A stretch of DNA of 58,879 nucleotides, taken from the IMG/VR virus record IMGVR_UViG_3300042090_001401, positions 1-58,879 of that record; one strand, 5' to 3'. The position numbers and the translations under genes were made by a program. Below, piece after piece: positions 7,614 through 39,280 of this stretch (the first letter of the stretch is position 1; every line of letters starts with the position of its first letter). The notes below the pieces were generated by a model. That model made no database searches. It was not told the DNA's origin and saw nothing but the letters and a program-made list of their open reading frames with translations. The DNA comes from a virus.

Positions 7614-7642
7614 AGCCTACATGCGGGACCCGGACCTGTCCA
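7614..7642 (-). promoter_or_regulatory. late-class promoter for the lysis cassette
   Basis: TGGACA, 17-base spacer, TAGGCT, then 7 bases to the ATG of the holin-like gene. Lies in the gap after the stop of the gene at 7644-8246. Confidence 0.7.
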
Positions 7643-7643
7643 A

Positions 7644-8246
7644 TCAGCGTCCCTGACGCGTCTCCAGGCCCTCCAGCAGCGCCGCGTTGCGGCGCGCGGT
7701 GTCGCGTACCTCGGCGAGTTCACGCGCGTAGGCGTCGAGCTGTGAGGCCAGGGCGTCGACCCGGTCGCGCTCCTGCTGGAGGGTGATCCGGGCCCCCTCG
7801 TCGGCGACCCCCCGGTCGTAGATGTACCGCCCGACCAGCACGGCCGAGGTCACCGCGGGCACGGCGATCACCGTGATCACGACCTTCAGCCGGCGGATCG
7901 TTCGCTCGAGGGCGGACATCTGCTCGGCCGGCGGCTTGTCGCCCATGGCCTTGAAGATCCGGTCCGCGGCGTCCTTGCGCGCCTCGAGCACCATCGACCG
8001 GACCTGCTCGCGGGTGTGCTCGTCGCGGGCGTAGAGCCGCGCGAGGTCGGGGTCCTCGTTGATGCGCTTGGTGATGCCCGTGTCGGGACCCTCGAACGCG
8101 TCGGGCACGGCGTCGGTGTCGGCCGCGCGCGCGAGCTCGCCGACCTGGTCGTGACCGGCCTGGGACTTCGCGCGCTCGCGCCGCGCCGCGGCCCCTTCGA
8201 GGTCGCGTTGGGTCTGCGACCACCAGGGCCGACGCTTGTCCGACAT
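7644..8246 (-). CDS. membrane-anchored coiled-coil protein
   Basis: 200 residues from the ATG at 8246 (a TTG at 8255 is in frame but lies within the promoter). A charged cytoplasmic N-terminal half of about 120 residues, one membrane segment (VVITVIAVPAVTSAVLVG near residue 125-142), then a coiled coil (ITLQQERDRVDALASQLDAY). Located just upstream of the holin-like gene; could be an antiholin or a second holin component, or an unrelated membrane protein. Not recognised. Confidence 0.6.
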   Translation of the reverse strand: MSDKRRPWWSQTQRDLEGAAARRERAKSQAGHDQVGELARAADTDAVPDAFEGPDTGITKRINEDPDLARLYARDEHTREQVRSMVLEARKDAADRIFKAMGDKPPAEQMSALERTIRRLKVVITVIAVPAVTSAVLVGRYIYDRGVADEGARITLQQERDRVDALASQLDAYARELAEVRDTARRNAALLEGLETRQGR

Positions 8247-8253
8247 GAGGTAC

Positions 8254-8282
8254 AAGCTACATGTCGCGCGCGCACGCGTCCA
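8254..8282 (-). promoter_or_regulatory. late-class promoter for the coiled-coil membrane protein
   Basis: TGGACG, 17-base spacer, TAGCTT, then 7 bases to the ATG at 8246. It lies within the last codons of the methyltransferase gene. Confidence 0.65.
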
Positions 8283-8964
8283 ACGAGGCGTCGCTCGTCG
8301 ACGGTCGACACGTCGCGTCCGCCGGCGAACGCGACACGTAAATGTTCCACGCGCGCGTGACGCCGCCGGACCCCGGGAACAGGTCGACGAACGTGTCGCC
8401 GGGCAGCGCGCCGACCAGGTCGAACAGCCAGTAGCAGAACGCGGCCGGCTTGGCGCCGACGACTCGGCGCGGATCCGTCGTTCTCGGCCGAGCGCAACGG
8501 ATGACCGCGTCCGGTCGCGCGCCCAGTTCGAGGTCGCGCCGCTCGCCGCTGTAGAGCACGGGCTCCCACGCCTGCAGGGGACCGAGCGCCTTGACGACGC
8601 GTACGCCGCGAAACCATGCGGCGACCCGCGGCGCGAGCCCGAGCTCGCACGCGGTCGCGAGTACGTCGGGCAGCGCGCGCGACGAGGTGGATAGCGCCCA
8701 CGCGTCGCTCTGCTGCAGTTGCGACAGGAGCGCGCGGTGGTCGACCTCGCCCGCGTAGTCGACGTGTCCCGAGTAGTAGCGCCTCGACAGCCCCGGGTAC
8801 GGCGGATCGGCGTACGTGAAGGTCATCGGACGCGTCGTGTAGGTCCTCCGCGACGCGTCTCTGCCGAACCGGTGGAGGGCCTGTCGACATCGCTTCGAGC
8901 AGGTTCTCGCGTCGCGTCGTTTCGTCGCGTCGAGCAGCTCGTTACACCACGCGCATTTCGTCAT
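8257..8964 (-). CDS. DNA N6-adenine methyltransferase with N-terminal zinc finger
   Basis: 235 residues. A CAWC ... CSKRC zinc finger at residues 4-28 is followed by the amino-methyltransferase motif TYADPPYPG (DPPY, motif IV) near residue 49, and the SAM-binding VDLFPGSGG (motif I) near residue 205, the motif order expected for a class in which the catalytic motif comes first. Likely modifies adenine in phage DNA. It follows the giant tail gene after 67 intergenic bases containing a dyad element and a TTGACA hexamer. Confidence 0.75.
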   Translation of the reverse strand: MTKCAWCNELLDATKRRDARTCSKRCRQALHRFGRDASRRTYTTRPMTFTYADPPYPGLSRRYYSGHVDYAGEVDHRALLSQLQQSDAWALSTSSRALPDVLATACELGLAPRVAAWFRGVRVVKALGPLQAWEPVLYSGERRDLELGARPDAVIRCARPRTTDPRRVVGAKPAAFCYWLFDLVGALPGDTFVDLFPGSGGVTRAWNIYVSRSPADATCRPSTSDASLDACARDM

Positions 8965-8985
8965 GCACGCAACGTCGCGCGAGCC

Positions 8986-9031
8986 GTCGCGACTGTCAAG
9001 CGGCGACGCGTCGCGGCTCGAGGTGCGACGG
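8986..9031. repeat. compound palindrome, left copy of an inverted 23-bp element
   Basis: Bases 9009-9031 are identical to the reverse complement of 27267-27289. The 23-mer is itself nearly palindromic, with CGTCGC and GCGACG arms around a CTCGAG core. A second palindrome, GTCGCGAC, sits at 8986-8993; the right copy also has GTCGCGAC next to it (27253-27260). The element begins one base from the tail-gene stop codon. A terminator is possible but no T-run follows; a binding site for a dimeric protein fits as well. Confidence 0.6.
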
Positions 9032-16323: not shown

Positions 16324-16327
16324 GGGT

Positions 16328-20478: not shown

Positions 20479-20937
20479 TTACTGCTCCTCGAAGTAGTAG
20501 AACGCGGTCATGTTCGACGAGCTGCCCGCGGTCGGGGTCAGCAGGCCGAACCCGTTGCTGGCGGTCGCCGGGATGACGAGCTCGCCGCCGGGCGACGCGA
20601 TCCATCGATACGTCGCCTTTTGGTTGAGGGGGGTGTCCGCGAGGACGATCGCACCCGAGCTCGTGTACGTCGGCTCGACGCTGTTCGCCTGGCCCGCGAC
20701 CGTGACGCACGCCGCGTCGGCCGTGTCGAGCGGGCTCGGGGTCACCGCGGTGTTCGTGCCCGGCGCCGTGCAGCGCGACAGGCGCCACAGGTTAGCGACG
20801 TCGGCGGGCACGGCCTCGGAGCCGAGCGTGAAGTCGTAGATCTTGGCTCGGCGCATCGAGCTCGCCGGCGCCGTGAGAGTGCCGACCGACGCGGACGCGC
20901 TCGCGGTCCGCTGGAGCAGCGCCGAATACTTGGCCAT
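20479..20937 (-). CDS. small virion-associated beta-rich protein
   Basis: 152 residues from an ATG 6 bases after a TGGACA-17-TAGTCT promoter. The pattern MAKYSALL ... RRAKIYDFTLGSEAVPADVANLWRLSR ... KATYRWIASPGGELVIPATASNGFG resembles a widespread phage structural protein family that I know only as a virion component. Its own promoter suggests high expression. Located just after the tape measure. Confidence 0.6.
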   Translation of the reverse strand: MAKYSALLQRTASASASVGTLTAPASSMRRAKIYDFTLGSEAVPADVANLWRLSRCTAPGTNTAVTPSPLDTADAACVTVAGQANSVEPTYTSSGAIVLADTPLNQKATYRWIASPGGELVIPATASNGFGLLTPTAGSSSNMTAFYYFEEQ

Positions 20938-20943: not shown

Positions 20944-20972
20944 AGACTAACGGCCCCTGTCGCCGCTGTCCA
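20944..20972 (-). promoter_or_regulatory. late-class promoter for the 20479-20937 gene
   Basis: TGGACA, 17-base spacer, TAGTCT, then 6 bases to the ATG. The -35 box abuts the tape-measure stop codon at 20973. Confidence 0.75.
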
Positions 20973-23900
20973 CTAGCCGCGATTTCGCGACCGCAGCCCG
21001 ACGAGCGGTCCCACCGCCCGCACCGAGATGTGAGAGACCGAGCGCTCGCCGCCGGGCGTGTCGAGCGCCCTCAGCATCTGGCCCGGCTCGAGGTGGATGT
21101 GCGCCTGGACGGCGGGCGCGCCGAGTCCGCGACCGCCCAGGCCGCCGCCGTCGCCCATCTGCTGGGCCGGCGTGGCGACCGAGACGCGCTCGCCGGGCGT
21201 GGCGCGGAACGCGACGAGCTGCGAGTCGGTGCCGCCCTGGCCGGCGACGGTAAACTCGCCGCCGCCCGCGAAGCCGCCGACCACCGCTTTCGTCAGCATC
21301 TGCGCCGCGCCGGTCGCGTTGAACCCGCCCGAGCCGCCACCGCCGCTCGACGACCCGCCCAGAAAGTTGAACCCGCCCGACGCACCGCCGCCGCCGTCGC
21401 CGAGCAGCGCCTTGAACGCCTGGTTGGTCATGAGCTTGATCATGTCCTGCAGCAGCGAGTCGACCATCGACTTCCAGTTGATCTTGGTGCCCATCACGAG
21501 GTCGGCGATCGACTTCGAAATGTCGCCGGTCACCTGCTTGAAGATCGCGCCGACCTGCGCGCCCGTGTTCGACGCCTCCTCCTTGAGCTGTAGAAACGCG
21601 ACCTCGAAGCCGCCCGCCATCGTGCGCGCCTCGCCGCTCGACTGCAGGAACTCCAGACGCAGCTTGTCCTGTGTCTGCGCGAGCTGATCGGTCGACAGGT
21701 GCAGTCGACCGTTGAGGTCGTCTAGCGCCTTGAGCTGGGTCTGGTACGTCTCCGCGGCGTCGACATTGAACGCCTTGCCGATCGTCCGCTGGTCGAGGTC
21801 GATCATGGCCTTGTTCGTGATGTCGGGACCGACGAGCATATTCGACTGCGCGTCGCTGATCTTCTTCAGCTCGCCGTAGAATTTCTCCGTCGGCGTCTCT
21901 AGTCGCTTCATCGACTGTTCGAGCTGCTCGAACTGCTTGTTGGTCTCGACCATCGCGGGTACGAGCTGCTGCGACGCCTCGAGCGCGACCTTCGACCAGT
22001 CGGCGCCCTTCGTATCGCCGCCGCTAGAGCCGAGCGACGCCGCGCCGACCCGCGAGTTCGTCGGCATCACCACGTTGCCGTTGACGTCCATGCCGGCGCC
22101 GTGCGTGTTCTGATTCTTGGCGTCGAGCGCGAGCAGCTTCTCGTACTCGCCGTAATACTCCTGCGCGGTGATCTTCCCGCGCTTCATCAGGTCCTCGATG
22201 TAGATCATCCCCTGCGCGAACTCGCGCTGCGGACGCGTCAGCTCGTCGAGCAGTCGCTGTTCCTCGGAGATCTGACCGTTGAACTCCTTTATCGTGACGC
22301 CAAGGTCCTTGAGCACCTTCTCGGGACCGCCGCTGACGAACGCGCCCACCCACTTGCCGATCGAGAACGTGCCCTGATTGATCGCGTTCGACAGCGCGTC
22401 GACGTGTTCGGCGTCGGTAATCAGCCACGGGTCCGCGGCGACGAGTTGCTGCACCCAGTCCTCGACACTCGCGCGCACGTCCCTCGTCGCCTCCTTGTTG
22501 CCGAGGAACGCGCTCAACAGGGTGCCGGCCGCGCCGGCCGCGTCGCGCTGCGCGCCGGACAGCGTCTGCAGCGCGCTCGACATCTTGCCGACGTCGACGG
22601 CGCCGGTGCGAACGGTGTCGAGCCACGGGTCGATCGAGCCCTTGAGCATGCTCGCGTCGGAACCGTTGCCCTCGTCGCCGAGCTGCTTCATCAACGTGTC
22701 GCGCATCTGCGCGTACGACGACGTTCCGCCGGTGCCGCCGTTGTCGCCTACGCCGAGGATGCCCATCGGCCCCATCATCTTGACGCCGGGCATCTTGCCG
22801 ATCGTGTCGTCGTACGCGCCCTTGAGCTTGCCGAGCAGCGACGCGCCCTGGCCCGCACTGTCGGCGAGCTTGCCCATGTCCGCGAGGATCCCCTTCGCGG
22901 TGTCGGAGAACGACTGACCGATCTGTCCGAACGCGACGACCGCCTGGTCCTTGAAGTGCTGCCACGCCTGGCCCGCGGTCTCGGCGAGCTGCGCGTGTTT
23001 CGCCGCGATGTCGGTCGACGCAGCCTCGGTCGCCGCGACGAGGTCCTGCGCGGACAGCTTGCCGTCGTTCGCCATCTTCAGCAGGCCGGCGCCCGTCGTG
23101 CCGAAGAACTTCTCCCAGGACTCGGCGAGCACGGGGTCGGCACGCATGATCGACCGCAGTTCGCGACCCGACAGCTGGCCCTGGTCCATGGCAAACACGA
23201 GCTTGTCCATCACGCCGGTCGCCTCGCCCATGCTGCGACCGGACAGCTGCATCGACTCGGCGAGCGCCTTGGTCAGCGTGTTCTGCTGCGCGTAGCTGAG
23301 GTTCGCCGCGTCGCCGACCTCGGCGGCGCGCAGCGACAGCGCGTTCGTCTCTGCGAGCGAGCCGTGCAGCTCGCCGGCCAGCTGCAACTGGTCGCGCACG
23401 ATCTCGTCCGCCGAGCGGTAGCTGGTCGCGAACCGCTGCACGCTGTTGGTCAGCGTCGTGTACTCGTCGCCGACCTTCACGAGCGCGACGGCCAGCGCCG
23501 CGGCGCCGACCGCGGCGACCGACATCCCGGACGCCATCGACGATAGACCGCCCGGTCCGCCCATGCCGCCGGCGAGCATCTGCGTCAGCCCCGCGGGGCC
23601 GCCCGAACCGCCGCCCCCCGCGCCGCCCACGCCCGCGCGCGCGGGGTCGAACACCGGGCCAAACTGCTCCTGCTTGGCGGTGACCGCGCCGGCGAAGTCG
23701 CTCGGCCGCGCGCGCTGCAGCTCGCGGTTCATGCGCGCGACGGCGTCGGCGTACTCGTTGACCGAGATCGCGCCCTTCTCGAGCAGCGCATCCGCGGCCT
23801 GGAGGTTCTTGCCGTACTCGTCGAGCGGGCCCTTGAGCGAGTCGAGGATGGACTTCTGCCGCGCGAGCTGGTCGGTGCCCGCGGCGAGCATCGCCTCGAA

Positions 23901-24116
23901 CTCGATCTCCTCGTCCGTCATCTTGCGGACGCCCTCGGCCGCCTCGGCGGCGGCGTTGCCAACCGCGGTGAACCGCCCGACGGCGTCGCGCAGCTGCTCG
24001 AAGCCGAGGTTTTCCTTCGCCGCCTGGCCGACCTCCCGAACCGCGGACTTCACCTCGCCGAGCGCCTGCTTGGCTCCCGCGCTGCCGACCTTCAGCTCGA
24101 TCGAGATGCCGCTCAT
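20973..24116 (-). CDS. tape measure protein
   Basis: 1047 residues. N-terminal coiled coil (KQALGEVKSAVREVGQAAKE), the tape-measure N-terminal domain pattern (SYRSADEIVRDQLQLAGELHG; GRSMGEATGVMDKLVFAMDQG; SGRELRSIMRADPVLAESW), a Gly-rich segment, a hydrophobic span (SMASGMSVAAVGAAALAVALV), and a Gly/Ser-rich C terminus ending with a TPGERVSVATPAQQ motif. It sets tail length; roughly 1.5 A per residue would give a tail near 155 nm if most of it is extended. The upstream promoter has a -10 TAGCCT 6 bases before the ATG. Confidence 0.9.
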   Translation of the reverse strand: MSGISIELKVGSAGAKQALGEVKSAVREVGQAAKENLGFEQLRDAVGRFTAVGNAAAEAAEGVRKMTDEEIEFEAMLAAGTDQLARQKSILDSLKGPLDEYGKNLQAADALLEKGAISVNEYADAVARMNRELQRARPSDFAGAVTAKQEQFGPVFDPARAGVGGAGGGGSGGPAGLTQMLAGGMGGPGGLSSMASGMSVAAVGAAALAVALVKVGDEYTTLTNSVQRFATSYRSADEIVRDQLQLAGELHGSLAETNALSLRAAEVGDAANLSYAQQNTLTKALAESMQLSGRSMGEATGVMDKLVFAMDQGQLSGRELRSIMRADPVLAESWEKFFGTTGAGLLKMANDGKLSAQDLVAATEAASTDIAAKHAQLAETAGQAWQHFKDQAVVAFGQIGQSFSDTAKGILADMGKLADSAGQGASLLGKLKGAYDDTIGKMPGVKMMGPMGILGVGDNGGTGGTSSYAQMRDTLMKQLGDEGNGSDASMLKGSIDPWLDTVRTGAVDVGKMSSALQTLSGAQRDAAGAAGTLLSAFLGNKEATRDVRASVEDWVQQLVAADPWLITDAEHVDALSNAINQGTFSIGKWVGAFVSGGPEKVLKDLGVTIKEFNGQISEEQRLLDELTRPQREFAQGMIYIEDLMKRGKITAQEYYGEYEKLLALDAKNQNTHGAGMDVNGNVVMPTNSRVGAASLGSSGGDTKGADWSKVALEASQQLVPAMVETNKQFEQLEQSMKRLETPTEKFYGELKKISDAQSNMLVGPDITNKAMIDLDQRTIGKAFNVDAAETYQTQLKALDDLNGRLHLSTDQLAQTQDKLRLEFLQSSGEARTMAGGFEVAFLQLKEEASNTGAQVGAIFKQVTGDISKSIADLVMGTKINWKSMVDSLLQDMIKLMTNQAFKALLGDGGGGASGGFNFLGGSSSGGGGSGGFNATGAAQMLTKAVVGGFAGGGEFTVAGQGGTDSQLVAFRATPGERVSVATPAQQMGDGGGLGGRGLGAPAVQAHIHLEPGQMLRALDTPGGERSVSHISVRAVGPLVGLRSRNRG
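21169..21200. repeat. 32-bp direct repeat, copy in the tape measure gene
   Basis: Identical to 28300-28331, in the same orientation and reading frame. Both encode the ATPGERVSVATP core. See the copy at 28300. Confidence 0.85.
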
Positions 24117-24122: not shown

Positions 24123-24151
24123 AGGCTACAGCCCGGTCCGGGCGCCGTCAC
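24123..24151 (-). promoter_or_regulatory. late-class promoter for the tape measure gene
   Basis: TAGCCT 6 bases before the ATG at 24116, and a weaker -35 GTGACG exactly 17 bases upstream, overlapping the stop codon of the tail chaperone extension. Confidence 0.5.
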
Positions 24152-24968
24152 TTGCGGGGGCGCGGCGGGGTCGGCGGCGGTCGCGAGCGGATCTGCTGGT
24201 CGACGAGCATGATGGTGTCGGTGGCGAGCTCGACGGCCTCGCGACTGAGGCCGCGGCGCTCGAAGAAGTCCTCGATCTTCCCGACGGGCAGCGGCCACAC
24301 GCCCGCGAACGCCGGCATGCGCTCGGTCGCGAGCTTCGCGTAGGCGTCGGTGAGGAACGCGATCCGCGTGTCGGTCGGCGGCTCCTCGGCGAGGATGCGC
24401 AGCTGTTCCGTCGTCGGCGGCCGCGGCGGACGCCTCGTCTTGCCCTGGGCGATCGACTTCTTCACCGGCGCGGCGCGTTCGACCCAGTCGAGCCGCGCGA
24501 CTATTTTTTTGCGAGCTGGTCGGCGGTCGGCGGCGGTGCGAACTGCGGACGCTCGCGGAAGTTCTCCTGATTCAACACGTACGGCAGCACGTACACGTTG
24601 AACACGTCGTCCGACAGCGAGAGCATCACCTCCATGATGCCATCGGGCGTCGACGGCACGGGCCGCTCGTAGTCGGGTCCGCCGTCCGCGCCGTCGAAGT
24701 AGAAGCCCTCGACCCCGGCGCACGCGAACCGCGCCACCGACTCGCGGTTCCGCAGCATGTTGCGCTGGCGCTCGGCCTCGTTCGTCGCGGTCGCGCCCAG
24801 CGCGCGCGCGTCCTCGTCGGGGGCGCTGAGCAGGTGCGACATCCACTCGGCGTTCGTCGAGCCGAGGTGGCGCAGCAGCAGGACGGGGTTGCCGACGAGC
24901 ATGTCGAGCACGCGCCGCACGACCTTGCCGGGCTGGACGCGCTGTCGCTGGAGGTTTCCGATGGGCAT
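24148..24968 (-). CDS. tail assembly chaperone, frameshifted long form (gpGT-like)
   Basis: Produced by a -1 ribosomal frameshift on the A7 run at 24504-24510, adding about 118 residues to the short form. The extension (KKIVARLDWVERAAPVKKS ... EDFFERRGLSREAVELATD) has no good independent start. Like lambda gpGT, the long form would bridge the tape measure to the tail tube protein during assembly. The total is about 273 residues. Confidence 0.75.
24501..24968 (-). CDS. tail assembly chaperone, short form (gpG-like)
   Basis: 155 residues, ATG 7 bases after a TGGACG-18-TACCCT promoter. Contains VQPGKVVRRVLDMLVGNPVLLLRHLGS and a C-terminal ENFRERPQFAPPPTADQLAKK; the last two Lys codons are the slippery AAA AAA followed at once by TAG. 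It sits between the tail tube and tape measure genes, the canonical place for gpG. Confidence 0.75.
   Translation of the reverse strand: MPIGNLQRQRVQPGKVVRRVLDMLVGNPVLLLRHLGSTNAEWMSHLLSAPDEDARALGATATNEAERQRNMLRNRESVARFACAGVEGFYFDGADGGPDYERPVPSTPDGIMEVMLSLSDDVFNVYVLPYVLNQENFRERPQFAPPPTADQLAKK
24504..24510 (-). promoter_or_regulatory. -1 programmed frameshift slippery heptamer A AAA AAA
   Basis: In the chaperone frame the codons read GCA AAA AAA TAG, giving the X XXY YYZ heptamer A AAA AAA directly before the stop. The -1 frame stays open to 24148 and reads on as a plausible protein. No other A7 run stands out in this GC-rich genome. Confidence 0.8.
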
Positions 24969-24975: not shown

Positions 24976-25005
24976 AGGGTAGCCCCGCGCGCCGCGGCGC
25001 GTCCA
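24976..25005 (-). promoter_or_regulatory. late-class promoter for the tail chaperone gene
   Basis: TGGACG, 18-base spacer, TACCCT, 7 bases to the ATG at 24968. The only class member with an 18-base spacer. Confidence 0.6.
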
Positions 25006-25676: not shown

Positions 25677-27173
25677 TTACGACGAGGGCAGGTACGGGAA
25701 AATCGACAGGCCCGCAACAAAGCCGGTGACCGGGTCCTGGAAACCGGCCGCCTTCGAGCTGATGATCACCGACTTGTTCATCTCCAGCTTGCGACCGTCG
25801 GCGGTTAGGTTCGCGGCCGAGATGTCGAACAGCATTCCGAAGTCGCCGTTACGCGCGGCGACGTCGACGGCCACCTGTTCGTTGTTGTGGACGCCGATGA
25901 TGATCTGGTCGCTCGTGAAGATGACCTCGGCCTCCCAGTCGCACTCGAAGTAGCCAACGTTCAACTTCGAGGCGCCGAGGATGCCGAGCTCCTTCTCGGG
26001 CGTCACGTTGTTCTTGCACGTGATCTTGATCGACTGGAAGTCGGTCGACACCGCCGCCTCGGCCGTGGTCGTCAGACGCAGCCGCATCAGGTCGGTCGCG
26101 GTCGACACCGCTGCCTGCTTGAGCGGCGCCAGCGCCGAGCTCGCACCGGTCTGTCGCGTGACCGTCGGGTCGTTCGAGACCGTGCCCTTGAACCCGAGGT
26201 TGAGCGTCGCCTTCGTCGTCAGCGAGAAGTTGAACGTGCACTCGTCGAGCATGTTGCCGAGCATGTACTCGTACTCGGGCGTGCCGACCGCGTTGAGGTC
26301 GGTGTACGTGACCTCGAACGACCACGACGGCATCAGGTACGAGGCGTTGTTCGACGCGACGTTGCAGACCCACCGCGAGAAGAACAGCTCGATGGTCTTG
26401 CCGGTGCCGGTGTCGGCCGAGCCGACGGTCCACGACCGGCGCTGCAGCGTCAGCAGGTTGCTCGTGATCGACACGATGCGCGCGAAGCCGCGATAGGCCA
26501 GCGTCGCGAACGAGTTGCCGCCGCCGAGCGCGGTGTCGCCGCCGACCCAGATCCACTGCCCGACGTTGAGGCCGAGCGACGTGAAGTTGAGGGTCGTGCT
26601 CGTCAGGTTGCCCGACGAGTTCATCTGCACGTCGCCGCTGGTCGCGCGCACGCCGGCGACCTCGAGCGTCGCGTTCGCGGGACACGTCTCGTTCACCAGC
26701 GTGTCGCCGGTGACAATGCTCGTGCCGGTCGAGCCCGTCGTGAGCACGTGCAGGCCGTTGTTGGCCGCGCCGGCGACCGAGGCCCCCGAGTAGTAGACCA
26801 TGATGCCGCTCGCCAGCGCGCCGCCCGACGCGACCGTCCACGCGTTCGACGCGACCGCGGTCGGCCGGAAGTACGCGGTGCCCGTGCCGCCGCTCTGCTG
26901 CACGGTCGACATGAAGATCCCCGACGCGAACTCGTCGAGGACGTCCTTCGTGAGGTCCGCGTCGAACGAGAACTTGGAGTCCTCGTCGACCAGGATGCTC
27001 TGCTGATACATCCGGTTCTGCGAGATCGGCATCCGGCTCAGCTTCTTGTACGTCGGACCGTAGTCCCCGAAACTGTTCGGCTGGAGCTGCAGCCAGCCCG
27101 AGCTCGGCAGCGTGCTGAGCGTCGACTCCAGCCCCACGTTGAGATTTACGCGCTCGGTGAGTACCTGGGCCAT
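25677..27173 (-). CDS. major tail tube protein
   Basis: 498 residues, larger than the usual 150-350, suggesting added Ig-like decorations. Starts MAQVLTERVNLNVGLESTL; SQNRMYQQSILVDEDSKFSFDADLTKD is characteristic of tail tube proteins, as is CTFNFSLTTKATLNLGFKG near residue 310. Polymerises around the tape measure. A TGGACA-17-TAGCCT promoter lies directly upstream, with the -10 ending 6 bases before the ATG. Confidence 0.8.
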   Translation of the reverse strand: MAQVLTERVNLNVGLESTLSTLPSSGWLQLQPNSFGDYGPTYKKLSRMPISQNRMYQQSILVDEDSKFSFDADLTKDVLDEFASGIFMSTVQQSGGTGTAYFRPTAVASNAWTVASGGALASGIMVYYSGASVAGAANNGLHVLTTGSTGTSIVTGDTLVNETCPANATLEVAGVRATSGDVQMNSSGNLTSTTLNFTSLGLNVGQWIWVGGDTALGGGNSFATLAYRGFARIVSITSNLLTLQRRSWTVGSADTGTGKTIELFFSRWVCNVASNNASYLMPSWSFEVTYTDLNAVGTPEYEYMLGNMLDECTFNFSLTTKATLNLGFKGTVSNDPTVTRQTGASSALAPLKQAAVSTATDLMRLRLTTTAEAAVSTDFQSIKITCKNNVTPEKELGILGASKLNVGYFECDWEAEVIFTSDQIIIGVHNNEQVAVDVAARNGDFGMLFDISAANLTADGRKLEMNKSVIISSKAAGFQDPVTGFVAGLSIFPYLPSS

Positions 27174-27179: not shown

Positions 27180-27208
27180 AGGCTAAAGCCCCCGGCCGAA
27201 TCTGTCCA
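27180..27208 (-). promoter_or_regulatory. late-class promoter for the major tail tube gene
   Basis: TGGACA, 17-base spacer, TAGCCT, 6 bases to the ATG at 27173. Confidence 0.8.
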
Positions 27209-27289: not shown

Positions 27290-27290
27290 A

Positions 27291-28220: not shown

Positions 28221-28970
28221 CTACCGCCCGCGCCGGTGGGGCTTGCCCTTGGCGACCTGCTGCGGCGCGGGCGTCGGCGGCGGGGGCAGCGGGAACGACG
28301 GCGTGGCGACCGAGACGCGCTCGCCGGGCGTCGCGAGGAACCGGACCACCTGCGACTCCGGTCCGGCGTCGGCGAAGTGCGCGGCCTCGGCCAGGATGGC
28401 CGCGTCGGCGTCGAGCTCGGCCGCGCTGCCGACGGCCTCCTCGTCCTCGACCGCGTGCGGCTGCACGTCGCGCCACGACCCCTCGGGCAGTTCGTACGCG
28501 GCGCCCTCTGGCACCTGTTCGCGTCTGGCGTCGATGTAGGCGCGGTCGCCGCGATGGACGCGCTGCATCACGCGGACTGTCCGCGTCCCGGGCCCGGCGT
28601 CGACCCCGGCGTCGACCCCGGCGACGCCACCGGCCCTCAGGGCGTTCGCAGTGGCCGCGTCGCCGCCGATCGGCACGTCGACAGCGACCAGCACGGTGTC
28701 GCCGTCCTGCGCGCGCTGGGCGCGTTTCGCGCGCTCCTGGCGGCTGACCGGCAGGTCCTCGGCGCCCTGCGCGGGCGCGCGCGGGTCCTCGTGGCCGATC
28801 AGCCGCTGGTCGTGCCACATGCGCAGGTTGCGGAGCGTGACCCCCGCGTAGCGCTGCCACACGAACTTCTCGCCGACCTGGAACGTGCGGTCGCCGAGCC
28901 GCATGCCCGGTCGGAGCACGTAAAGCGTCGCGTCGGCGTCCAGCTCTCGGTGACCGCGGATGCGGGGCAT
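28221..28970 (-). CDS. hypothetical protein at the head-tail boundary carrying a tape-measure-like motif
   Basis: 249 residues, ATG 8 bases after a TGGACT-17-CATGCT promoter. The N-terminal part has DATLYVLRPGMRLGDRTFQVGEK; the middle is Asp/Ala/Val-rich, with a repeated VDAGVDAG unit; the C terminus has FLATPGERVSVATP followed by Pro-rich and Arg/Lys tails. The ATPGERVSVATP core is the same as in the tape measure C terminus and is encoded by an identical 32-base stretch. Function unknown; could be a docking or scaffold partner. Confidence 0.55.
   Translation of the reverse strand: MPRIRGHRELDADATLYVLRPGMRLGDRTFQVGEKFVWQRYAGVTLRNLRMWHDQRLIGHEDPRAPAQGAEDLPVSRQERAKRAQRAQDGDTVLVAVDVPIGGDAATANALRAGGVAGVDAGVDAGPGTRTVRVMQRVHRGDRAYIDARREQVPEGAAYELPEGSWRDVQPHAVEDEEAVGSAAELDADAAILAEAAHFADAGPESQVVRFLATPGERVSVATPSFPLPPPPTPAPQQVAKGKPHRRGR
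28300..28331. repeat. 32-bp direct repeat, second copy
   Basis: Identical to 21169-21200 in the tape measure gene. Flanks diverge at once apart from scattered matches, so this looks like a transferred or strongly constrained module. Confidence 0.85.
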
Positions 28971-28978: not shown

Positions 28979-29007
28979 AGCATGCCCCGCCCCGATCCGC
29001 GAGTCCA
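28979..29007 (-). promoter_or_regulatory. late-class promoter for the 28221-28970 gene
   Basis: TGGACT, 17-base spacer, CATGCT, 8 bases to the ATG. It lies just after the capsid gene stop codon at 29011. Confidence 0.65.
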
Positions 29008-29010
29008 GGG

Positions 29011-31175: not shown

Positions 31176-31231
31176 GTCCTGGTCTCCGGGTCGGTGTGTC
31201 TAGGTTGCGTGGGGTTGTTGGGCGGCTCGCG

Positions 31232-32020
31232 CTACGCGGCGCCGCCCGCCTCGTCGTCGTCGCCGCCGACGGTCTCGACCTCGCCGTCGTCGTCGGCGTA
31301 GTCGTCGAGCTCGGGGTTGTCGCCCTGCGGCACGCGGTGGTAGTTGCCGGCGCGGCCCTGGCGGACCTCCATCTCGGCGTACAGCTCCTGGCCCTCGGCG
31401 GTCTTGAGCACCGCGTCGTAGGCCTTGTGATAGCTGATCTTGTCGTCCTTCATCTTCGCCTTGGCCAACGCCTCGAGCGCGGCCTCGGGGTTGAGGTCGT
31501 CGCCGTCGCCGCCGTCGTCGTCGGGGACGTTGACGCCGGCGCGCTTGCCGATCGCGGAGCGCTTCGCGAGCGCGCGTTCGCCCGCGGCGATGGACGCCAT
31601 CGCGGCCTTGAGCGCGTCGCCGTCGTCCTTGCCCGAGAACTCCTTCTCGACGGCCTTCAGGATGCGCGCGCGGATGCCGATGTCGCCGGGGTACGACTTC
31701 ATCAGCTTGGTCGCCTTGGCCTCGGCCTCGGCGCGCTCGGCGCGCTCCTCCTGCTTGCGCAGCTTCTCGGCGTTCGCGTCGTTCGCGCGCGCGAGCCGCT
31801 CGGCGATCTGTCCGTGCGACTTGCGGATCTCCGTGCCGTCGTCGCACTTGTACACGACGGGGTCGGAGTCGCCGGCCGCCTTCACGAGCGCCTCGCGCTG
31901 CGATGCGGTCAACCCGACGAAGGCCTCCTGGTCGCGCTTGGCGAGCGTCCGGTAGTGCGCCTTGTGGGCGTCGGACATCTCGGCGAGGGCTTCGAGCTCG
32001 GCCTGCTTCTTCGGGTCCAT
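31232..32020 (-). CDS. nested scaffolding protein (internal start inside the protease gene)
   Basis: 262 residues, same frame and stop as the long protease-scaffold ORF. The internal ATG at 32020 has AAGGAG 6 bases upstream, and a late-class promoter (TGGACA-17-TAGCGT) lies 26 bases before it. The product is highly charged and helical (EELEALAEMSDAH..., NANAEKLRKQEERAERAEAEA, ending in an acidic tail), as capsid scaffolds are. This matches the lambda C/Nu3 arrangement, where the scaffold is made in excess from an internal start. Confidence 0.75.
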   Translation of the reverse strand: MDPKKQAELEALAEMSDAHKAHYRTLAKRDQEAFVGLTASQREALVKAAGDSDPVVYKCDDGTEIRKSHGQIAERLARANDANAEKLRKQEERAERAEAEAKATKLMKSYPGDIGIRARILKAVEKEFSGKDDGDALKAAMASIAAGERALAKRSAIGKRAGVNVPDDDGGDGDDLNPEAALEALAKAKMKDDKISYHKAYDAVLKTAEGQELYAEMEVRQGRAGNYHRVPQGDNPELDDYADDDGEVETVGGDDDEAGGAA

Positions 32021-33331
32021 CGCGTTCTCCTTGTCCTTGCCGATGGACGCTAAAGGCCCCGGCGTGTTTTGTCCAGCGACCGCACCGCGCGCCCACTTCG
32101 GCGCGCGACGCTCGACGTTCTCCATGACCTGGGCGGTCGACGCGTTCGCCGCGTCCGCGGTCACCGCGCGGTCGATGACGAGGTCGACGTCGTGCGAGTG
32201 GCCGTCGTTCGCGGCGATCTCGATCTTGCCCGTCTTGTCGTCGACGATGAACGCGTGGCAGTGCGGGTAGTCGTCGCCCGCCTTCGTCGCGTGGCCCGTC
32301 CAGCCGCGGTCGCGGTCGTCGTCGAGGTCCTCGTCCGGGTCGATGACGTGCTGGTGGCCGGCCGACAGCGACGTGAGCACCGCGTCCTTGCGGATCCACA
32401 TCAGCGTGTCGGGCGTGACCGTCGCTGCCTTCACGATCGACACGAGCGCACCCTCCTGGGCCGGCCAGTCGACGAGCGACGCGAAGTCGATGCGGAAGTC
32501 GTCGAACACGCGCAGCCGACGCGGCTCGACCTCGGTCGCCGACTTGCCGAACCGGCCGTCGCGCGACTTGCCGCCCTTGCCCGCCTTGCCCATCGCGGCG
32601 AACTCCTTCGAGCCGTACTTCTGCCGGCCGATGTACGCGGCGAGCGCGTCCGGGTTGTCCGCGCCCTTCGACGCGAGTCGGTCGCTCAGCTCGGAGAACG
32701 CCGACTTCTCGAACGCCGCGCCCGCGCGCTTGCCGCCCTTCTTGCCACCGAACGCCGCGGCGTTCTCCTCGTGCATCGCGTCCGCATGGCGACCGAGCTC
32801 GTCCTTCTCGTCGTCGCTGAGCGCGCCGACGACGTCGTGCAGATGCTGCTCGAGCTCGACGTCGGACGGCGAGCCGTTGTGCTTGCCGCCCGGACCCCTG
32901 CGCGACTTGCCCGTCGCTGACACCTCGTGTGAGCGGTGCAGCGAGCCGCCGATCGAGAAGCCGCGACGCTCGCCGCGATCGATCTTGGACAGCAGCGAGC
33001 GATCGCGCGGCGCGAAGCCGATCACGATGCCCTCCTGGTCGGGCTCGCCGCCCAGGCCGACGATGCCGGACGTCACGCCCTTCTCGACGGGGAAGCAGTA
33101 CACGACGTCGCCGATCGTGCGCTCGTCGTGCTGCTCGTCGGAGCGACGCGAGTCCTTCATGAACTGCGCGGTCGCGCGCTTCGCGGCGTCGAGCGGGATG
33201 TGATCGCCCTGGAGGTCGAAGTACGGCTCGCCGCCGACCGTCGACACGATCAGCCACCCGTAGGCGACGCCCTCCTCGTGGTCGACCTTCGAGAAGGTCA
33301 GCTCTCGCTTCGCGAAGCCGTTGCGCGCCAT
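31232..33331 (-). CDS. prohead serine protease fused to capsid scaffold
   Basis: 699 residues. N-terminal 130 residues look like an XkdF-type phage serine protease (SKVDHEEGVAYGWLIV, GDHIPLDAAKRATAQFM, IVIGFAPRD, GERRGFSIGGSL). A basic insert follows, with DALAAYIGRQKYGSKEFAAMGK (about residue 222-243), then a His/Asp-rich segment with AGHQHVIDPDED and HCHAFIVDD near residues 320-365, and finally the scaffold from residue 438. The protease would mature the prohead and remove the scaffold. The mid-section with repeated His pairs is unusual for this family and may bind metal. Confidence 0.75.
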   Translation of the reverse strand: MARNGFAKRELTFSKVDHEEGVAYGWLIVSTVGGEPYFDLQGDHIPLDAAKRATAQFMKDSRRSDEQHDERTIGDVVYCFPVEKGVTSGIVGLGGEPDQEGIVIGFAPRDRSLLSKIDRGERRGFSIGGSLHRSHEVSATGKSRRGPGGKHNGSPSDVELEQHLHDVVGALSDDEKDELGRHADAMHEENAAAFGGKKGGKRAGAAFEKSAFSELSDRLASKGADNPDALAAYIGRQKYGSKEFAAMGKAGKGGKSRDGRFGKSATEVEPRRLRVFDDFRIDFASLVDWPAQEGALVSIVKAATVTPDTLMWIRKDAVLTSLSAGHQHVIDPDEDLDDDRDRGWTGHATKAGDDYPHCHAFIVDDKTGKIEIAANDGHSHDVDLVIDRAVTADAANASTAQVMENVERRAPKWARGAVAGQNTPGPLASIGKDKENAMDPKKQAELEALAEMSDAHKAHYRTLAKRDQEAFVGLTASQREALVKAAGDSDPVVYKCDDGTEIRKSHGQIAERLARANDANAEKLRKQEERAERAEAEAKATKLMKSYPGDIGIRARILKAVEKEFSGKDDGDALKAAMASIAAGERALAKRSAIGKRAGVNVPDDDGGDGDDLNPEAALEALAKAKMKDDKISYHKAYDAVLKTAEGQELYAEMEVRQGRAGNYHRVPQGDNPELDDYADDDGEVETVGGDDDEAGGAA
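32047..32075 (-). promoter_or_regulatory. late-class promoter inside the protease gene, for the nested scaffold
   Basis: TGGACA, 17-base spacer, TAGCGT. Unlike the others it is followed by a 26-base leader with a good ribosome site before the scaffold ATG. Confidence 0.7.
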
Positions 33332-33337
33332 GCCGCC

Positions 33338-33366
33338 AAGCTACGCGCCGCGTCCGCGCCTGTCCA
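33338..33366 (-). promoter_or_regulatory. late-class promoter for the protease-scaffold gene
   Basis: TGGACA, 17-base spacer, TAGCTT, 6 bases to the ATG at 33331. The -35 box directly follows the stop codon of the upstream gene (33367). Confidence 0.8.
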
Positions 33367-34799: not shown

Positions 34800-34889
34800 G
34801 AGGGTGACTCCACCACGGCGCCGCGATCGCGTCTACCGGCGAGGGAGGGAGCGGCGACGCGTCCAGCGTAGCGCCGCGGTGGAGACAGG
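34800..34889. other. 90-bp intergenic gap
   Basis: No gene seen. It contains a TGGACG hexamer on the minus strand (around 34860) but no -10 box at 17-18 bases, so I do not call a promoter. Confidence 0.5.
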
Positions 34890-35348
34890 TTACGCCTTCG
34901 GCGCGGCGGTCGACGCGACGACGGCCGCGGCAGTCGCGGGCGCGGACGCCGGGGCCGCGGGGCTGGTCGCCGTCGTGGTGGCAGCGGACGAACTCGGCGC
35001 GGGCGTCGGCGCGGGCGTCGAGGCGGGCGTGTTCGCGGCGATCGCCGCGGCGAGCGCGTTGCTCGCGTTCGACAGCTGCGTCGCCATCGCGGCGACCGCA
35101 GCGGGGTCGGTCGCGGCGGCAGCGAGCTGGGTCGCGAGGCCCTGGATCAGGGTGACGGCGGACGCCTCCACGGTGGTGGTGGCGGCGACCTGGGCTTGAA
35201 GGGCGGCGAGTGCGGGGTCCATGGCCGCAAAGCTAGCAGATATGGCTGACACGAGGTCAACGAACAGCGCGCACAACTCGCCGACGCGACGTTCGAGGCG
35301 CTGGACCTCGGCGGTCAGGCGACCGATCTCGGATGCGGTTCCAGACAT
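34890..35348 (-). CDS. small coiled-coil protein with Ala/Thr/Pro-rich tail
   Basis: 152 residues. N-terminal coiled coil (SEIGRLTAEVQRLERRVGELCALFVDLVSAI) followed by Ala-rich helices and a low-complexity Ala/Pro/Ser/Thr C terminus. A TAGGCT box ends 6 bases before the ATG, but the expected TGGACN box is missing 17 bases upstream. Function unknown. Confidence 0.6.
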   Translation of the reverse strand: MSGTASEIGRLTAEVQRLERRVGELCALFVDLVSAISASFAAMDPALAALQAQVAATTTVEASAVTLIQGLATQLAAAATDPAAVAAMATQLSNASNALAAAIAANTPASTPAPTPAPSSSAATTTATSPAAPASAPATAAAVVASTAAPKA

Positions 35349-35357
35349 GCCGTCAGC

Positions 35358-35666
35358 CTACAGCAGGTGCGCGAGCTGCGCCTGCGTCTCCTCGATCGCG
35401 CGCCGCAGGTGCTCGCGCATCCGTTCGCGCGTCCACACGCGGAACGGCCCGGAGAAGTCGGTTCGCTGGCGATGGTGCAGCGAGCACGCGGGTATCACGG
35501 TCGTGTCGTCGGCCTTGCGACCGAGCGCGCGTCGGCCGGCATGGTCGGCCTCGACCGGACCGCCGCACGTCGACACCTCGGCGAACGCGCACGGCAACAG
35601 CTTGCACGCGAGCATGTAGTCGGTGTCGCGCTCGCGTCGCGCGTATCGCGAACGTCGACTGGTCAT
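35358..35666 (-). CDS. HNH-like nuclease, DUF968-type
   Basis: 102 residues. The core PVEADHAGRRALGRKADDTTVIPACSLHHRQ (about residues 36-67; here in two pieces, EADHAGRRALG and CSLHHRQ) resembles HNH/RecA-dependent phage nucleases, with the CKLLPC pair before it as the zinc half. It ends 10 bases before the 35348 gene. HNH proteins in head modules often assist terminase cleavage, but it could also be a recombination nuclease. Confidence 0.65.
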   Translation of the reverse strand: MTSRRSRYARRERDTDYMLACKLLPCAFAEVSTCGGPVEADHAGRRALGRKADDTTVIPACSLHHRQRTDFSGPFRVWTRERMREHLRRAIEETQAQLAHLL

Positions 35667-35971
35667 CGTCGCGTCGCGAGCTGGGCGTTGTGCCGCGCGC
35701 GTAATCGGGCGACGTCGTCGGACGAGATCGCCGCGCCGACGACCGCCTCGACGTGCTCGCCGTCGAGCTCCAACTCGAGCCGCGCGCCGTCCGATCGCAG
35801 CAGCAGCGCGACCGAGGCGACCGGCAGGTCGACCACGACCTCGCCGCCGCGACCGTCCGACTGCACCGCCTCGACGCGCGCGGTGACCGGGTCGCCGTCG
35901 TACACGACGCGAACGCGGGACATCGGACGCAGCTTCGCGTGTCGATCGGTGTCGACGTCGTCGCTAGCCAC
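35663..35971 (-). CDS. hypothetical 102-residue beta-rich protein
   Basis: GTG start overlapping the end of the preceding gene by 8 bases; its own stop overlaps the HNH start. Alternating strands (SRVRVVYDGDPVTARVEAVQ; VVVDLPVASVALLLRSDGARLELEL) and a basic C-terminal helix. Not recognised. Confidence 0.55.
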   Translation of the reverse strand: MASDDVDTDRHAKLRPMSRVRVVYDGDPVTARVEAVQSDGRGGEVVVDLPVASVALLLRSDGARLELELDGEHVEAVVGAAISSDDVARLRARHNAQLATRR

Positions 35972-36452
35972 GCGGCGCCTGCTCGCCGGCGAGAACCGCG
36001 CGCACCGCCGCGTCCTTCGCCTCGAGCAGCTTGCGCAGTGCGACCGTGCGTTCGGCGTTGCGCGGCAGCGTGCGGACGACCTGGTAGGCGAGGTGACAAA
36101 ACGGTCGACTGACCGTCTGCAGCTCGGGCGGCAGGTGACCGAACTGGAACCACTGCAGCATCGGCTCGTCGCCGAACCCGGCGCCCCACTTCTTCGACGG
36201 GTGCGACTCGCCGAAGTGACCGTGCGCGCGGATGCCGCGGTGCAGGTCGTCGACGATCGGCGTCGTGTCCGGCCAGTGCGTCAACGTCGCCGACACGATG
36301 CTCGCGTTCGCGCCGAGCTCGCGCACGAGTCGCAGTGCGGTCCCGTCCGGCGAGTTGCGCGACGAGTCGATGTCGAGCGGCTCGCCAGGCTTCGCGGTGC
36401 GGTCGTCGCCGTGACCACCGACCGCCTCGATCTCGATCTTGAAGTTGCCCAT
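35964..36452 (-). CDS. putative cyclic-nucleotide sponge: Acb2/Tad1-type hairpin domain fused to an N-terminal domain
   Basis: 162 residues. The last 60 residues resemble the helical-hairpin domain shared by anti-CBASS Acb2 and anti-Thoeris Tad1 proteins: FQFGHLPPELQTVSRPF (residues 102-118), LAYQVVRTLP (121-130), ERTVALRKLLEAKDAAVRAVL (134-154). Such proteins sequester immune signalling nucleotides. The N-terminal 95 residues (KIEIEAVGGHGDDR; LTHWPDTTPIVDDLHRG) form a separate domain common in phages, function unknown to me. It has its own promoter (TGGACC-17-TACGGT, 7 bases to ATG). Whether this fold still binds a signal here is untested. Confidence 0.6.
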   Translation of the reverse strand: MGNFKIEIEAVGGHGDDRTAKPGEPLDIDSSRNSPDGTALRLVRELGANASIVSATLTHWPDTTPIVDDLHRGIRAHGHFGESHPSKKWGAGFGDEPMLQWFQFGHLPPELQTVSRPFCHLAYQVVRTLPRNAERTVALRKLLEAKDAAVRAVLAGEQAPRG

Positions 36453-36459
36453 TGCCGCG

Positions 36460-36488
36460 ACCGTACCAGCGCGCGGCCGCGGGGTCCA
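36460..36488 (-). promoter_or_regulatory. late-class promoter for the Acb2/Tad1-like gene
   Basis: TGGACC, 17-base spacer, TACGGT, 7 bases to the ATG at 36452. Confidence 0.6.
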
Positions 36489-36495
36489 ACGTCGA

Positions 36496-36762
36496 CTAGC
36501 GAACCGTCGCGGCCGGCTTCGCCGCCGGCGCGCCCGAGCCCGAGCCCGAACCCTGAGCGGCGAGCTTCGCGGCGCGCGCCTGCTGCGCGCACTGGATCAG
36601 GTCGGTCGTGATCGCGCCGTAGTTGCCGGCGCTGGCGTACTGCACGAGTGCGACGTCGTCGCCCTCCAGACACTTGACGCCCGCCTTCTCGCCCGCCTTG
36701 TCGGCGGCGGAACAGGCGACGAGCGTCACGAGCGTCACGACGAACAGCAGGATGGGGCGCAT
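36496..36762 (-). CDS. small lipoprotein
   Basis: 88 residues from the ATG at 36762; the upstream in-frame ATG (36774) lies within the promoter. Signal peptide MRPILLFVVTLVTLVAC with a good lipobox (LVAC), then Cys-containing helical domain and a Gly-Ser/Ala-Pro-rich C terminus. Phage-encoded lipoproteins can block superinfection or modify the envelope; the exact role is unknown. Confidence 0.65.
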   Translation of the reverse strand: MRPILLFVVTLVTLVACSAADKAGEKAGVKCLEGDDVALVQYASAGNYGAITTDLIQCAQQARAAKLAAQGSGSGSGAPAAKPAATVR

Positions 36763-36769
36763 GGACCGG

Positions 36770-36798
36770 AGCATGCGCCAGCTCGGTCGCCGAGTCCA
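36770..36798 (-). promoter_or_regulatory. late-class promoter for the lipoprotein gene
   Basis: TGGACT, 17-base spacer, CATGCT, 7 bases to the ATG at 36762. It supports that ATG as the true start. Confidence 0.6.
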
Positions 36799-36804
36799 GC
36801 GGGC

Positions 36805-37422
36805 TCAGATCGAGCGGTCGAGGGTGTAGCCGTCGTCGTCGTAGAACTCCGACACGCTCGGCGAGCCGTCGTCGTTCGTCGCGCCGTACGCCTGGCCGTA
36901 GGCGCTCGGGTCCTGCGCCGAGCCGCCCAGGTACTGACCCAGCAGCTCGTTGACCTGCGTCGGGAACCGGCCCGTGATGCCGAGGGTCGGACGGAAGAAC
37001 CGCACCGTCGCCGGGCCCGCGCCGACGCTCGCGACGTTGCTGCCCGAGATCGCCGTATCCTGCGTCGACGTGTTGAACAGCACCATCGCGGCGAGCTCGT
37101 AGCAGCCGTAGATGACGCCCCACGGGATCGTCGTCGGGTCGACCGCGTCGCCGAGCGCGTCGACCACGTTCGACCGCGGCCACTGCAGCTGCACGTCGAC
37201 CTGCGGCTGCGTGTTCCACGTCCCCTGCCACTGCTGGCGGTCGAGCATGCGCGACGCCTCGAGCAGCGCGCTCGCCTGCGTCGCGGGGACCGCGGCGTTA
37301 AAGGCGGCCTTCGCCGGCGTGAGGCCAGGCGCGAGGTACGCCTGACACGCGGCGAGCGACCCGTAGACCGCGTAGGTGACGGAGTTGATCGTGACCGAGC
37401 CCTGGGTTCCTCCGTCGGCCAT
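36805..37422 (-). CDS. head-tail connector (DnaT-like/gp6-like adaptor)
   Basis: 205 residues, ATG with AAGGAG 7 bases upstream. Pattern GSLAACQAYLAPGLTPAKAAFNAA, ASRMLDRQQWQGTW, QLQWPRSNVVDALGDAVDPTTIPWGVIYGCYELAAMVL is that of the DnaT-like ssDNA-binding/connector proteins that follow portal genes. It probably forms the ring under the portal. Confidence 0.7.
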   Translation of the reverse strand: MADGGTQGSVTINSVTYAVYGSLAACQAYLAPGLTPAKAAFNAAVPATQASALLEASRMLDRQQWQGTWNTQPQVDVQLQWPRSNVVDALGDAVDPTTIPWGVIYGCYELAAMVLFNTSTQDTAISGSNVASVGAGPATVRFFRPTLGITGRFPTQVNELLGQYLGGSAQDPSAYGQAYGATNDDGSPSVSEFYDDDGYTLDRSI

Positions 37423-37424
37423 GA

Positions 37425-39245
37425 CTACTCCTTCACGTCGGTCTCGACGGGCTTCATCGGTTGCTTCTTTTCCTCGTCGTTCGTCAGCACCGACGGGACG
37501 GGGATGTTGACGCCGGTCGACGGGTCGCGCGGCTGTCCGGTCGCGTCCATCGTCGGCGTGGGCTGGTCGCTGTTGCCGGTCGCCATGTCGGTCGTGCCGG
37601 TCGCGAGCGGCGACTCGTTGCCGCGCGCGCCCGACTGCGGCACGGGCGAGCGGTCGACGGTACCGTAGCTGCCGGGCGCGTCGGCGCCCTGCGCGCGCGA
37701 GGTGTTCTCGGTGCCGTCGAGCGCGCGGGTCACGTTCGGCGAGCCCTGACCGGGCGGCTGCTGGGCGCCGGGCAGCGAGCCGGGCGCGCCAGGGAACGGT
37801 GACTGACCGGGCGCGGGGATCGGTCGACCGAGCGGACCGACGATCTGCGGCGGCATGACGGGGGCGCCGACGACGCCGAGCATGTCGCGGATCTGACCGA
37901 ACACCGGGTCGTCGGGCGGCATGTACGCGCCCGCCTGCTTGAGCTGCACGATCGCATTCATCATCTCGACGACCGAGGACAGCTGGACCTTGTCGGGGAT
38001 GAGCCGCGGCATGAGGTCGCGATCCCACCCGTTGAGGTCGAACAGCGTGCCGACGACGTCGACGCGGTAGCAGTCGGCGAGCTCGTTCAGCGTGCCGGTG
38101 ATGAGCTGGGCGAATAGCTCGGTCTTGTCCTGCGACAGCGCGAGCGAGCCCTTACCGCCGGCGCCCAGCAGCACGTGCTCGAGGCCGAACACGCGGGCGA
38201 TCTCCTCGTTCTTGCGGACGATGGTCTCGTGGATCTCGTGCAGGCCCGCGCCGTCGCCGCGCAGGAGTTCGAGCCCGTACATCTTCTGAGCCGACGGGGT
38301 CTGCAGCGGGCCGATGTCCGTGTAGACCGACGAGTCCATCACGAGACCGAGACCTGGATTCTTGACGTGGTTGGCGACGATGTTGTTGATGCCGCGGACG
38401 CGACGGTCGCGCTCGGCCGGCGTGATGACGCCCTCGGACACGAGCTGCGCGAGCAGGCCGAGCGGCGCCGAGCCGACGGGTATGCCGCGCGCGTCGGTCT
38501 CGTAGCCCCATCCCTCGAGCTGTTCGAGACGCTTCAGCTGGCGGTTCGTCTCGACGACGTGGCGCAGGAGACCGACGCCGTCGGGCTGATCGGTGACCGT
38601 GTCGTCGACGACGTAGACGACCTTGTCGCGCGGTAGGTACAGTAGCTGGCCCGAGTACGGCACGCGCTGCACGAACCCGGCGACGAGACCGTCCTCGTCG
38701 ATGTCCCACTGTTCGATCGTCCACTGCGGCCGACGTTCGATCGTCAGAAACCCGATGTTGCCGTCCGCGCGTCGCTTCGCGACCCACTCCTGCACCGAGT
38801 AGCCGAGCAGGCGGAACAGCAGCGTGCCCTTGACGAACTTCGACCACGGCATCTCCATGTCGTGAATCGCGTCGTCGACGATCTCGGCGTACTTCTTCGC
38901 CTGGTCGATCGAGCCGCCCTTCGCCTTGCCGATCGCCTTGAGGTTGTCGACGTCGGGCGGCTCGACGGTCCAGCCGACGCCCGAACCCATCGCGAGGTAG
39001 TAGCGGCTGCACGCCCCGACGATCCCCGTGTTGAGGAGCATCTGGTTGAGCGTCTTGAACCGCTGCGGTCCGTACGTCAGGTCGGCGTTCGACTCGGCGC
39101 TGACCAGGAAGCCGCCGACCGCGTTCGTGCCGCCGACGCCCTGTCGCTGCTGCGGCTTGGGCTTGACGCGGAAAAAGTCCGCGACGCGGGTCAGAAACTC
39201 CTTCGCGATGCCGCCGCGGCGCGGACGTGGGGCGGCTGCTGCCAT
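37425..39245 (-). CDS. portal protein (Mu gp29 / DUF935-like)
   Basis: 606 residues. Typical portal features: SADLTYGPQRFKTLNQML, FLTIERRPQWTIEQWDIDEDG, DVTDQPDGVGLLRHVVETNRQLKRLE (stem), IHETIVRKNEEIARVFGLEHVLLGAGGKGSLALSQDKTELFAQ near residues 345-390, then a Pro/Gly-rich C-terminal tail that is longer than usual. Twelve copies should form the DNA entry vertex. The promoter TGGACT-17-CATCCT ends 6 bases before the ATG. Confidence 0.85.
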   Translation of the reverse strand: MAAAAPRPRRGGIAKEFLTRVADFFRVKPKPQQRQGVGGTNAVGGFLVSAESNADLTYGPQRFKTLNQMLLNTGIVGACSRYYLAMGSGVGWTVEPPDVDNLKAIGKAKGGSIDQAKKYAEIVDDAIHDMEMPWSKFVKGTLLFRLLGYSVQEWVAKRRADGNIGFLTIERRPQWTIEQWDIDEDGLVAGFVQRVPYSGQLLYLPRDKVVYVVDDTVTDQPDGVGLLRHVVETNRQLKRLEQLEGWGYETDARGIPVGSAPLGLLAQLVSEGVITPAERDRRVRGINNIVANHVKNPGLGLVMDSSVYTDIGPLQTPSAQKMYGLELLRGDGAGLHEIHETIVRKNEEIARVFGLEHVLLGAGGKGSLALSQDKTELFAQLITGTLNELADCYRVDVVGTLFDLNGWDRDLMPRLIPDKVQLSSVVEMMNAIVQLKQAGAYMPPDDPVFGQIRDMLGVVGAPVMPPQIVGPLGRPIPAPGQSPFPGAPGSLPGAQQPPGQGSPNVTRALDGTENTSRAQGADAPGSYGTVDRSPVPQSGARGNESPLATGTTDMATGNSDQPTPTMDATGQPRDPSTGVNIPVPSVLTNDEEKKQPMKPVETDVKE

Positions 39246-39251
39246 GTCGCG

Positions 39252-39280
39252 AGGATGCCCGCTGCGGCCCGGCGAGTCCA
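39252..39280 (-). promoter_or_regulatory. late-class promoter for the portal gene
   Basis: TGGACT, 17-base spacer, CATCCT, 6 bases to the ATG at 39245. Confidence 0.75.

Follow-up and report, generated by a model that had tools for sequence, protein, structure and literature searches.

The window analysed here is the whole of IMG/VR virus record IMGVR_UViG_3300042090_001401 (58,879 bases, 70% GC). Its terminal 28 bases (58852-58879) repeat bases 1-28 exactly and a cytosine methyltransferase reading frame continues across the join, so the record probably represents an entire genome of 58,851 bp, either circular or circularly permuted. Minus-strand genes between about 41 and 5.7 kb encode terminase, Mu-type portal, head morphogenesis, XkdF-type protease, capsid, tail tube, tape measure, tail assembly and endolysin proteins, and it is on this gene content that we call the region late. 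Judged by its sequence, the phage is an uncultivated tailed phage, a YuA/RDJL-like siphovirus, and it resembles YuA/RDJL/KPP23-type siphoviruses in gene order and has homologues of their portal, protease-scaffold, capsid and tail tube proteins. Among named phages, the nearest by capsid and portal (about 35-42% identity) are Pseudomonas phages KPP23 and RSP, the Roseobacter RDJL phages and Rhizobium phages; the nearest virus contig reaches 52% in the capsid, and alignment of the capsid against genome contigs found no prophage relative. Genes were called on the window by codon usage; gene 34890-35222 was added after the weight matrix described below indicated it, and for the gene at 36496 we shifted the start from 36774 to 36762, a promoter-linked ATG four codons further in. 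The genome also encodes at least three DNA methyltransferases (two near the join, at 57720-58706 and across the join itself, and one Dam-like early protein) and, among its early proteins, some that are ParB-like; opposite one coding stretch a tRNA-Ala is called at 2376-2458.

Twelve promoter-like sites had been listed on the minus strand by a first-pass annotation, and all twelve are present there; we keep its naming, in which a site takes the number of the low (plus-strand) end of its -10 box. Eleven lie directly before a gene. The -10 box ends 6 bases 5' of the ATG at 39252-39280 (TGGACT-N17-CATCCT, portal gene 37425-39245), 33338-33366 (TGGACA-N17-TAGCTT, fused protease-scaffold ORF 31232-33331), 27180-27208 (TGGACA-N17-TAGCCT, the top-scoring site, tail tube gene 25677-27173), 24123-24151 (GTGACG-N17-TAGCCT, with a weak -35 box, tape measure gene 20973-24116) and 20944-20972 (TGGACA-N17-TAGTCT, gene 20479-20937). 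The distance is 7 bases at 36770-36798 (TGGACT-N17-CATGCT, before ATG 36762 of the small lipoprotein-like gene 36496-36762), 36460-36488 (TGGACC-N17-TACGGT, weak by matrix, gene 35964-36452), 24976-25005 (TGGACG-N18-TACCCT, gene 24501-24968, a tail assembly chaperone by position), 8254-8282 (TGGACG-N17-TAGCTT, gene 7644-8246) and 7614-7642 (TGGACA-N17-TAGGCT, gene 7109-7606), and 8 bases at 28979-29007 (TGGACT-N17-CATGCT, gene 28221-28970). The twelfth site, 32047-32075 (TGGACA-N17-TAGCGT), is internal to the protease-scaffold ORF, 26 bases 5' of an internal ATG at 32020 (Met438). Gene 24501-24968 terminates in A AAA AAA TAG followed by an inverted repeat, and the next ORF lies in the -1 frame; the tail assembly chaperones encoded in this stretch (24148-24968, minus strand), directly before the tape measure gene, are probably expressed through a programmed -1 frameshift with its slip site at about 24504-24510.

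The twelve sites share the consensus TGGAC-N17/18-[T/C]A...T, from which 24123 deviates at the -35 box. The spacer is 17 bases throughout except for 18 at 24976, as first described, and thus falls within the 16-18 bases of sigma70-type promoters; the A at position 2 and the T at position 6 of the -10 box are invariant (12/12), and at the -35 box position 2 of TTGAC is replaced, giving TGGAC, in 11 of 12 sites. The -10 sequence had been given as TAGNCT or CATNCT, which describes most sites but not 36460 (TACGGT), 24976 (TACCCT), or 8254 and 33338 (both TAGCTT). The CAT-type boxes (28979, 36770 and 39252) occur in exactly the three sites that read TGGACT, and this trio is a possible sub-class. 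Across 129 aligned bases only TGGAC and [TC]A...T are conserved, so that nothing points to an operator nearby; GC content is very high in the spacer and the discriminator (84-86%). The boxes do tend to abut the preceding stop codon: most of the genes are preceded by gaps of 31-43 bp, about the promoter's own length, with exceptions of 10, 117 and 135 bp.

A pattern of this kind, assembled by eye, might have arisen by chance, and the weight matrix used here was itself built on the sites chosen in the first-pass annotation. The scan of both strands that it had proposed nonetheless placed the real sites far above the Markov expectation. Twelve positions in the window exceeded 12 bits, every one of them on the minus strand, against 3.3 on both strands of order-3 Markov sequences of equal size; at 15 bits or more there were 9 (all minus strand) against a mean of 0.22 on both strands, and at 17 bits 6 against 0.03. 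When each site was scored with a matrix from which it had been left out, 10 of 12 outscored every non-family position on both strands, among them 39252 (15.0) and 32047 (16.9), neither of which was matched elsewhere. The exceptions, 36460 (equalled by 8 other positions) and 24123 (by 40), are unremarkable by matrix alone and are supported mainly by their position.

Start codons gave a separate test. Among the 943 ATGs of the window, 10 have TGGAC and [TC]A...T at the fixed spacing and all 10 are predicted gene starts, the adjusted ATG 36762 included; both boxes occurred at that spacing before none of 897 other ATGs, leaving no false positives, and before none of 1865 GTGs. These controls contradict a chance origin for at least 10 of the 12 sites, and we consider it extremely improbable for the pattern. 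The matrix scan also confined the family to the virion and lysis region and added a thirteenth site, a candidate at 35230-35260 (TTGACC-N19-TAGCTT), 7 bases 5' of ATG 35222 of gene 34890-35222, which is not one of the ten ATGs with both boxes. Outside the family, a weak leadered candidate on the minus strand at 41983 (TGGAAC-N17-TAGGCT) would leave a 32-base leader before 41950, and the -10-like sequences TAGGGT (44943, minus) and TAACCT (42034, plus) lie 6-7 bases 5' of ATGs with no TGGAC box.

In sigma70 promoters the first transcribed base is expected 7-9 bases past the -10 box. With gaps of 6-8 bases, as the first-pass annotation had measured at the eleven gene-proximal sites, transcription would therefore be expected to begin at the ATG or adjacent to it. 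Consistent with its claim that these genes lack a Shine-Dalgarno sequence, none of the twelve starts (the eleven listed and 35222) has GGAG, GAGG, AGGA or AAGG at the usual place, so that a -10 box some 6-8 bases 5' of the start is combined with no ribosome site at all twelve. Other late genes carry a Shine-Dalgarno in 9 of 23 cases (p=0.015), the remaining 14 likewise being without a recognised one, and only 11 of these 23 begin with ATG, compared with 12 of 12 family genes (p=0.002). At 20937, 24116, 27173 and 33331 an earlier start is impossible because the TAG of the -10 box is itself an in-frame stop.

It could still be that the promoters are real but that transcription starts, or the true start codons, lie further downstream, giving leadered mRNAs. 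In-frame codons led by a Shine-Dalgarno do occur 19-27 codons downstream of 7606 (codon 26) and 24968 (codon 20), which makes those two starts less certain, and site 32047 is leadered. The other starts have no such codon within the next 40, and alignments to homologues of the tail tube, portal and protease begin within the first 1-31 residues; we regard this alternative as quite unlikely. The original reading of a promoter family producing leaderless mRNAs is instead supported by the fixed distance between -10 box and ATG, the absence of Shine-Dalgarno sequences, the exclusive use of ATG, the scarcity of alternative starts and the presence in relatives of a Shine-Dalgarno at the same start codon. 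Together these features strongly predict leaderless late transcription.

The exception had also been described correctly, as having a 26-base leader with a good ribosome site: AAGGAG stands at a good distance from Met438. The first-pass annotation did not mention that 32047 sits within a 699-residue ORF (31232-33331), residues 12-130 of which match the XkdF protease family (PF14550). Within this protease ORF, the in-frame internal start and its ribosome site predict a nested gene (31232-32020, minus strand) of 262 residues, from Met438 to the end of the ORF, with a putative scaffold function. In RDJL Phi 2 and KPP23 the protease-scaffold region consists of two genes. A methionine led by a Shine-Dalgarno stands at the position aligned to Met438 in RDJL Phi 2 gp61 (residue 146) and in L004 (residue 441), and KPP23 has a methionine at the aligned position. 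Site 32047 probably drives this nested scaffold gene, and finding a family site just 5' of an internal start that is conserved lends weight to reading the whole family as promoters. Phage lambda C/Nu3 is the familiar case of nested protease-scaffold genes. As there, an in-frame internal start in the protease ORF would yield a separate scaffold protein; unlike there, the internal start has its own late-family promoter upstream.

The most telling evidence for leaderless starts comes from relatives. RDJL Phi 2 and KPP23 begin their tail tube gene at the codon used here, L004 begins it a single codon away, and Shine-Dalgarno-like sites are present at the start in all three; the portal genes of RDJL Phi 2 and KPP23 also carry a Shine-Dalgarno, but their starts are displaced by some codons. 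Orthologous starts in RDJL Phi 2 and KPP23 mostly have a Shine-Dalgarno, with no family motif in the stretches compared, the opposite of the arrangement here. The two relatives closest by capsid (52% and 42% in that protein) lack the class as well. A pattern scan of virus contigs gave 12 loci with a single copy each and no second copy, under a GC filter that passes only part of a true family and may have omitted near kin. Across several genome groups the pattern showed no enrichment, and in genome contigs it was scattered among the matches listed; plasmids of Gemmatirosa, Thermus, Deinococcus, Streptomyces, Methylorubrum, Rubrobacter, Isosphaera, Amycolatopsis and Azospirillum had 0 or 1 match. 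No sampled genome, virus or relative contained the class.

What would read these promoters? Late promoters of YuA are sigma54-dependent, and a relaxed form of their -24/-12 element (TGGCAC-N5-TTGCW) had no match in the window, so we reject sigma54 promoters here. Scans of the late region for consensus E. coli-type promoters and for terminators gave nothing above shuffles. A phage sigma factor was rejected on a search of the phage proteins for sigma70 region 4 (PF04545), which gave no match at E 1 while controls matched. No sigma family member, polymerase, known activator or co-activator was detected among the phage proteins scanned, and use of the host polymerase is therefore likely. In the mechanism we infer, a host RNA polymerase holoenzyme carrying a primary-type sigma factor would read TGGAC at -35 and [T/C]A...T at -10 late in infection and begin transcription 7-9 bases past the -10 box, on the ATG or no more than one or two bases from it. 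The majority of these mRNAs would accordingly lack a leader, with the ribosome binding the 5' AUG directly. Each promoter would occupy the short gap 5' of its gene and open a unit that comprises a single gene or a few, the later genes of which often have Shine-Dalgarno sites; 32047 would be the one leadered member, making extra scaffold protein from the nested start.

That the sites are ordinary housekeeping promoters of a host in which leaderless genes are common, with nothing specific to the phage or to late expression, is a serious possibility, if somewhat short of probable. Leaderless genes led by TAnnnT are common in some high-GC groups, namely Actinobacteria and Deinococcus-Thermus (PMC3160421, PMC12340547), and like them the phage genes have TANNNT a few bases 5' of the start and no Shine-Dalgarno. 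A candidate early promoter of the phage (TTTACA-N16-TATTAT, 1069-1096, plus strand), 6 bases 5' of ATG 1103 of a 39-residue ORF, would be leaderless too. The cellular TA-led genes, however, have no uniform TGGAC at -35, and sampled members of those groups show no TGGAC excess. Restriction of the family to the virion and lysis region and the replacement at position 2 of TTGAC also speak against ordinary promoters, as do the 0-4 pattern matches in each sampled genome or plasmid, a sample that does not include the host, compared with six in the 59 kb phage.

The uniformity of the class, its confinement to virion and lysis genes and the departure of its -35 box from the sigma70 consensus could also point to a dedicated late switch, in which a phage sigma-remodelling protein or an alternative host sigma modifies the holoenzyme. 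Proteins with which phages retarget the host sigma have been described, for example P23-45 gp39 and T4 AsiA (PMC7403470). The scans that detected no sigma factor or known co-activator count against this, in a phage most of whose early proteins match no family, and we hold the idea tentatively, as possible but rather doubtful. Its fuller form, in which a late-modified holoenzyme reading TGGAC and a shift of the infected cell to leaderless initiation would together make a transcription-translation switch, each virion or lysis unit dosed by its own leaderless promoter and the scaffold the leadered exception, seems to us unlikely. As a whole, the data are best explained by sigma70-type leaderless promoters serving the virion and lysis region, a reading that we consider probable with good confidence.

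Sevostyanova et al. reportedly described in 2007 middle and late promoters of phage phiYS40 with only a -10-like element, and the strong -35 box of the present phage sets it apart from that Thermus myovirus. Many middle and late transcripts of phiYS40 are leaderless, for which a shift in IF2/IF3 has been proposed (PMC3594737). In each of the two phages a promoter element of its own recurs before many late genes in a leaderless middle/late layout, predicted in our case; phiYS40 uses host RNA polymerase, as our phage likely does. Leaderless SigA-like promoters have also been predicted in mycobacteriophage Corndog, which like the Cluster O phages and our phage is a siphovirus (PMC4351075). Corndog and Cluster O phages have three such promoters of different sequence rather than a uniform late class, and the one promoter in Corndog's structural operon drives a leftward gene (PMC4351075). 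The first-pass statement that no such uniform leaderless late class is known in siphoviruses was therefore too strong when set beside Corndog and, outside the siphoviruses, phiYS40. Since leaderless phage transcripts and TAnnnT-led leaderless genes have already been reported or predicted, the layout is of a known kind. Leaderless promoters are known in a few other phages, and as a uniform class they are unusual. What is new is a -35/-10 class that recurs uniformly over about a dozen virion and lysis units and is missing from the relatives examined, whose starts have Shine-Dalgarno sites, together with the leadered exception nested at 32047.

If this reading is true, a change from leadered to leaderless expression would become open to study on orthologous genes, because the gene that this phage would express from a leaderless promoter begins with a Shine-Dalgarno in relatives. 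Start codons in such phages would be predictable from promoter geometry, and a nested scaffold gene, seemingly with a promoter of its own, would be added to the gene set of the virion region.
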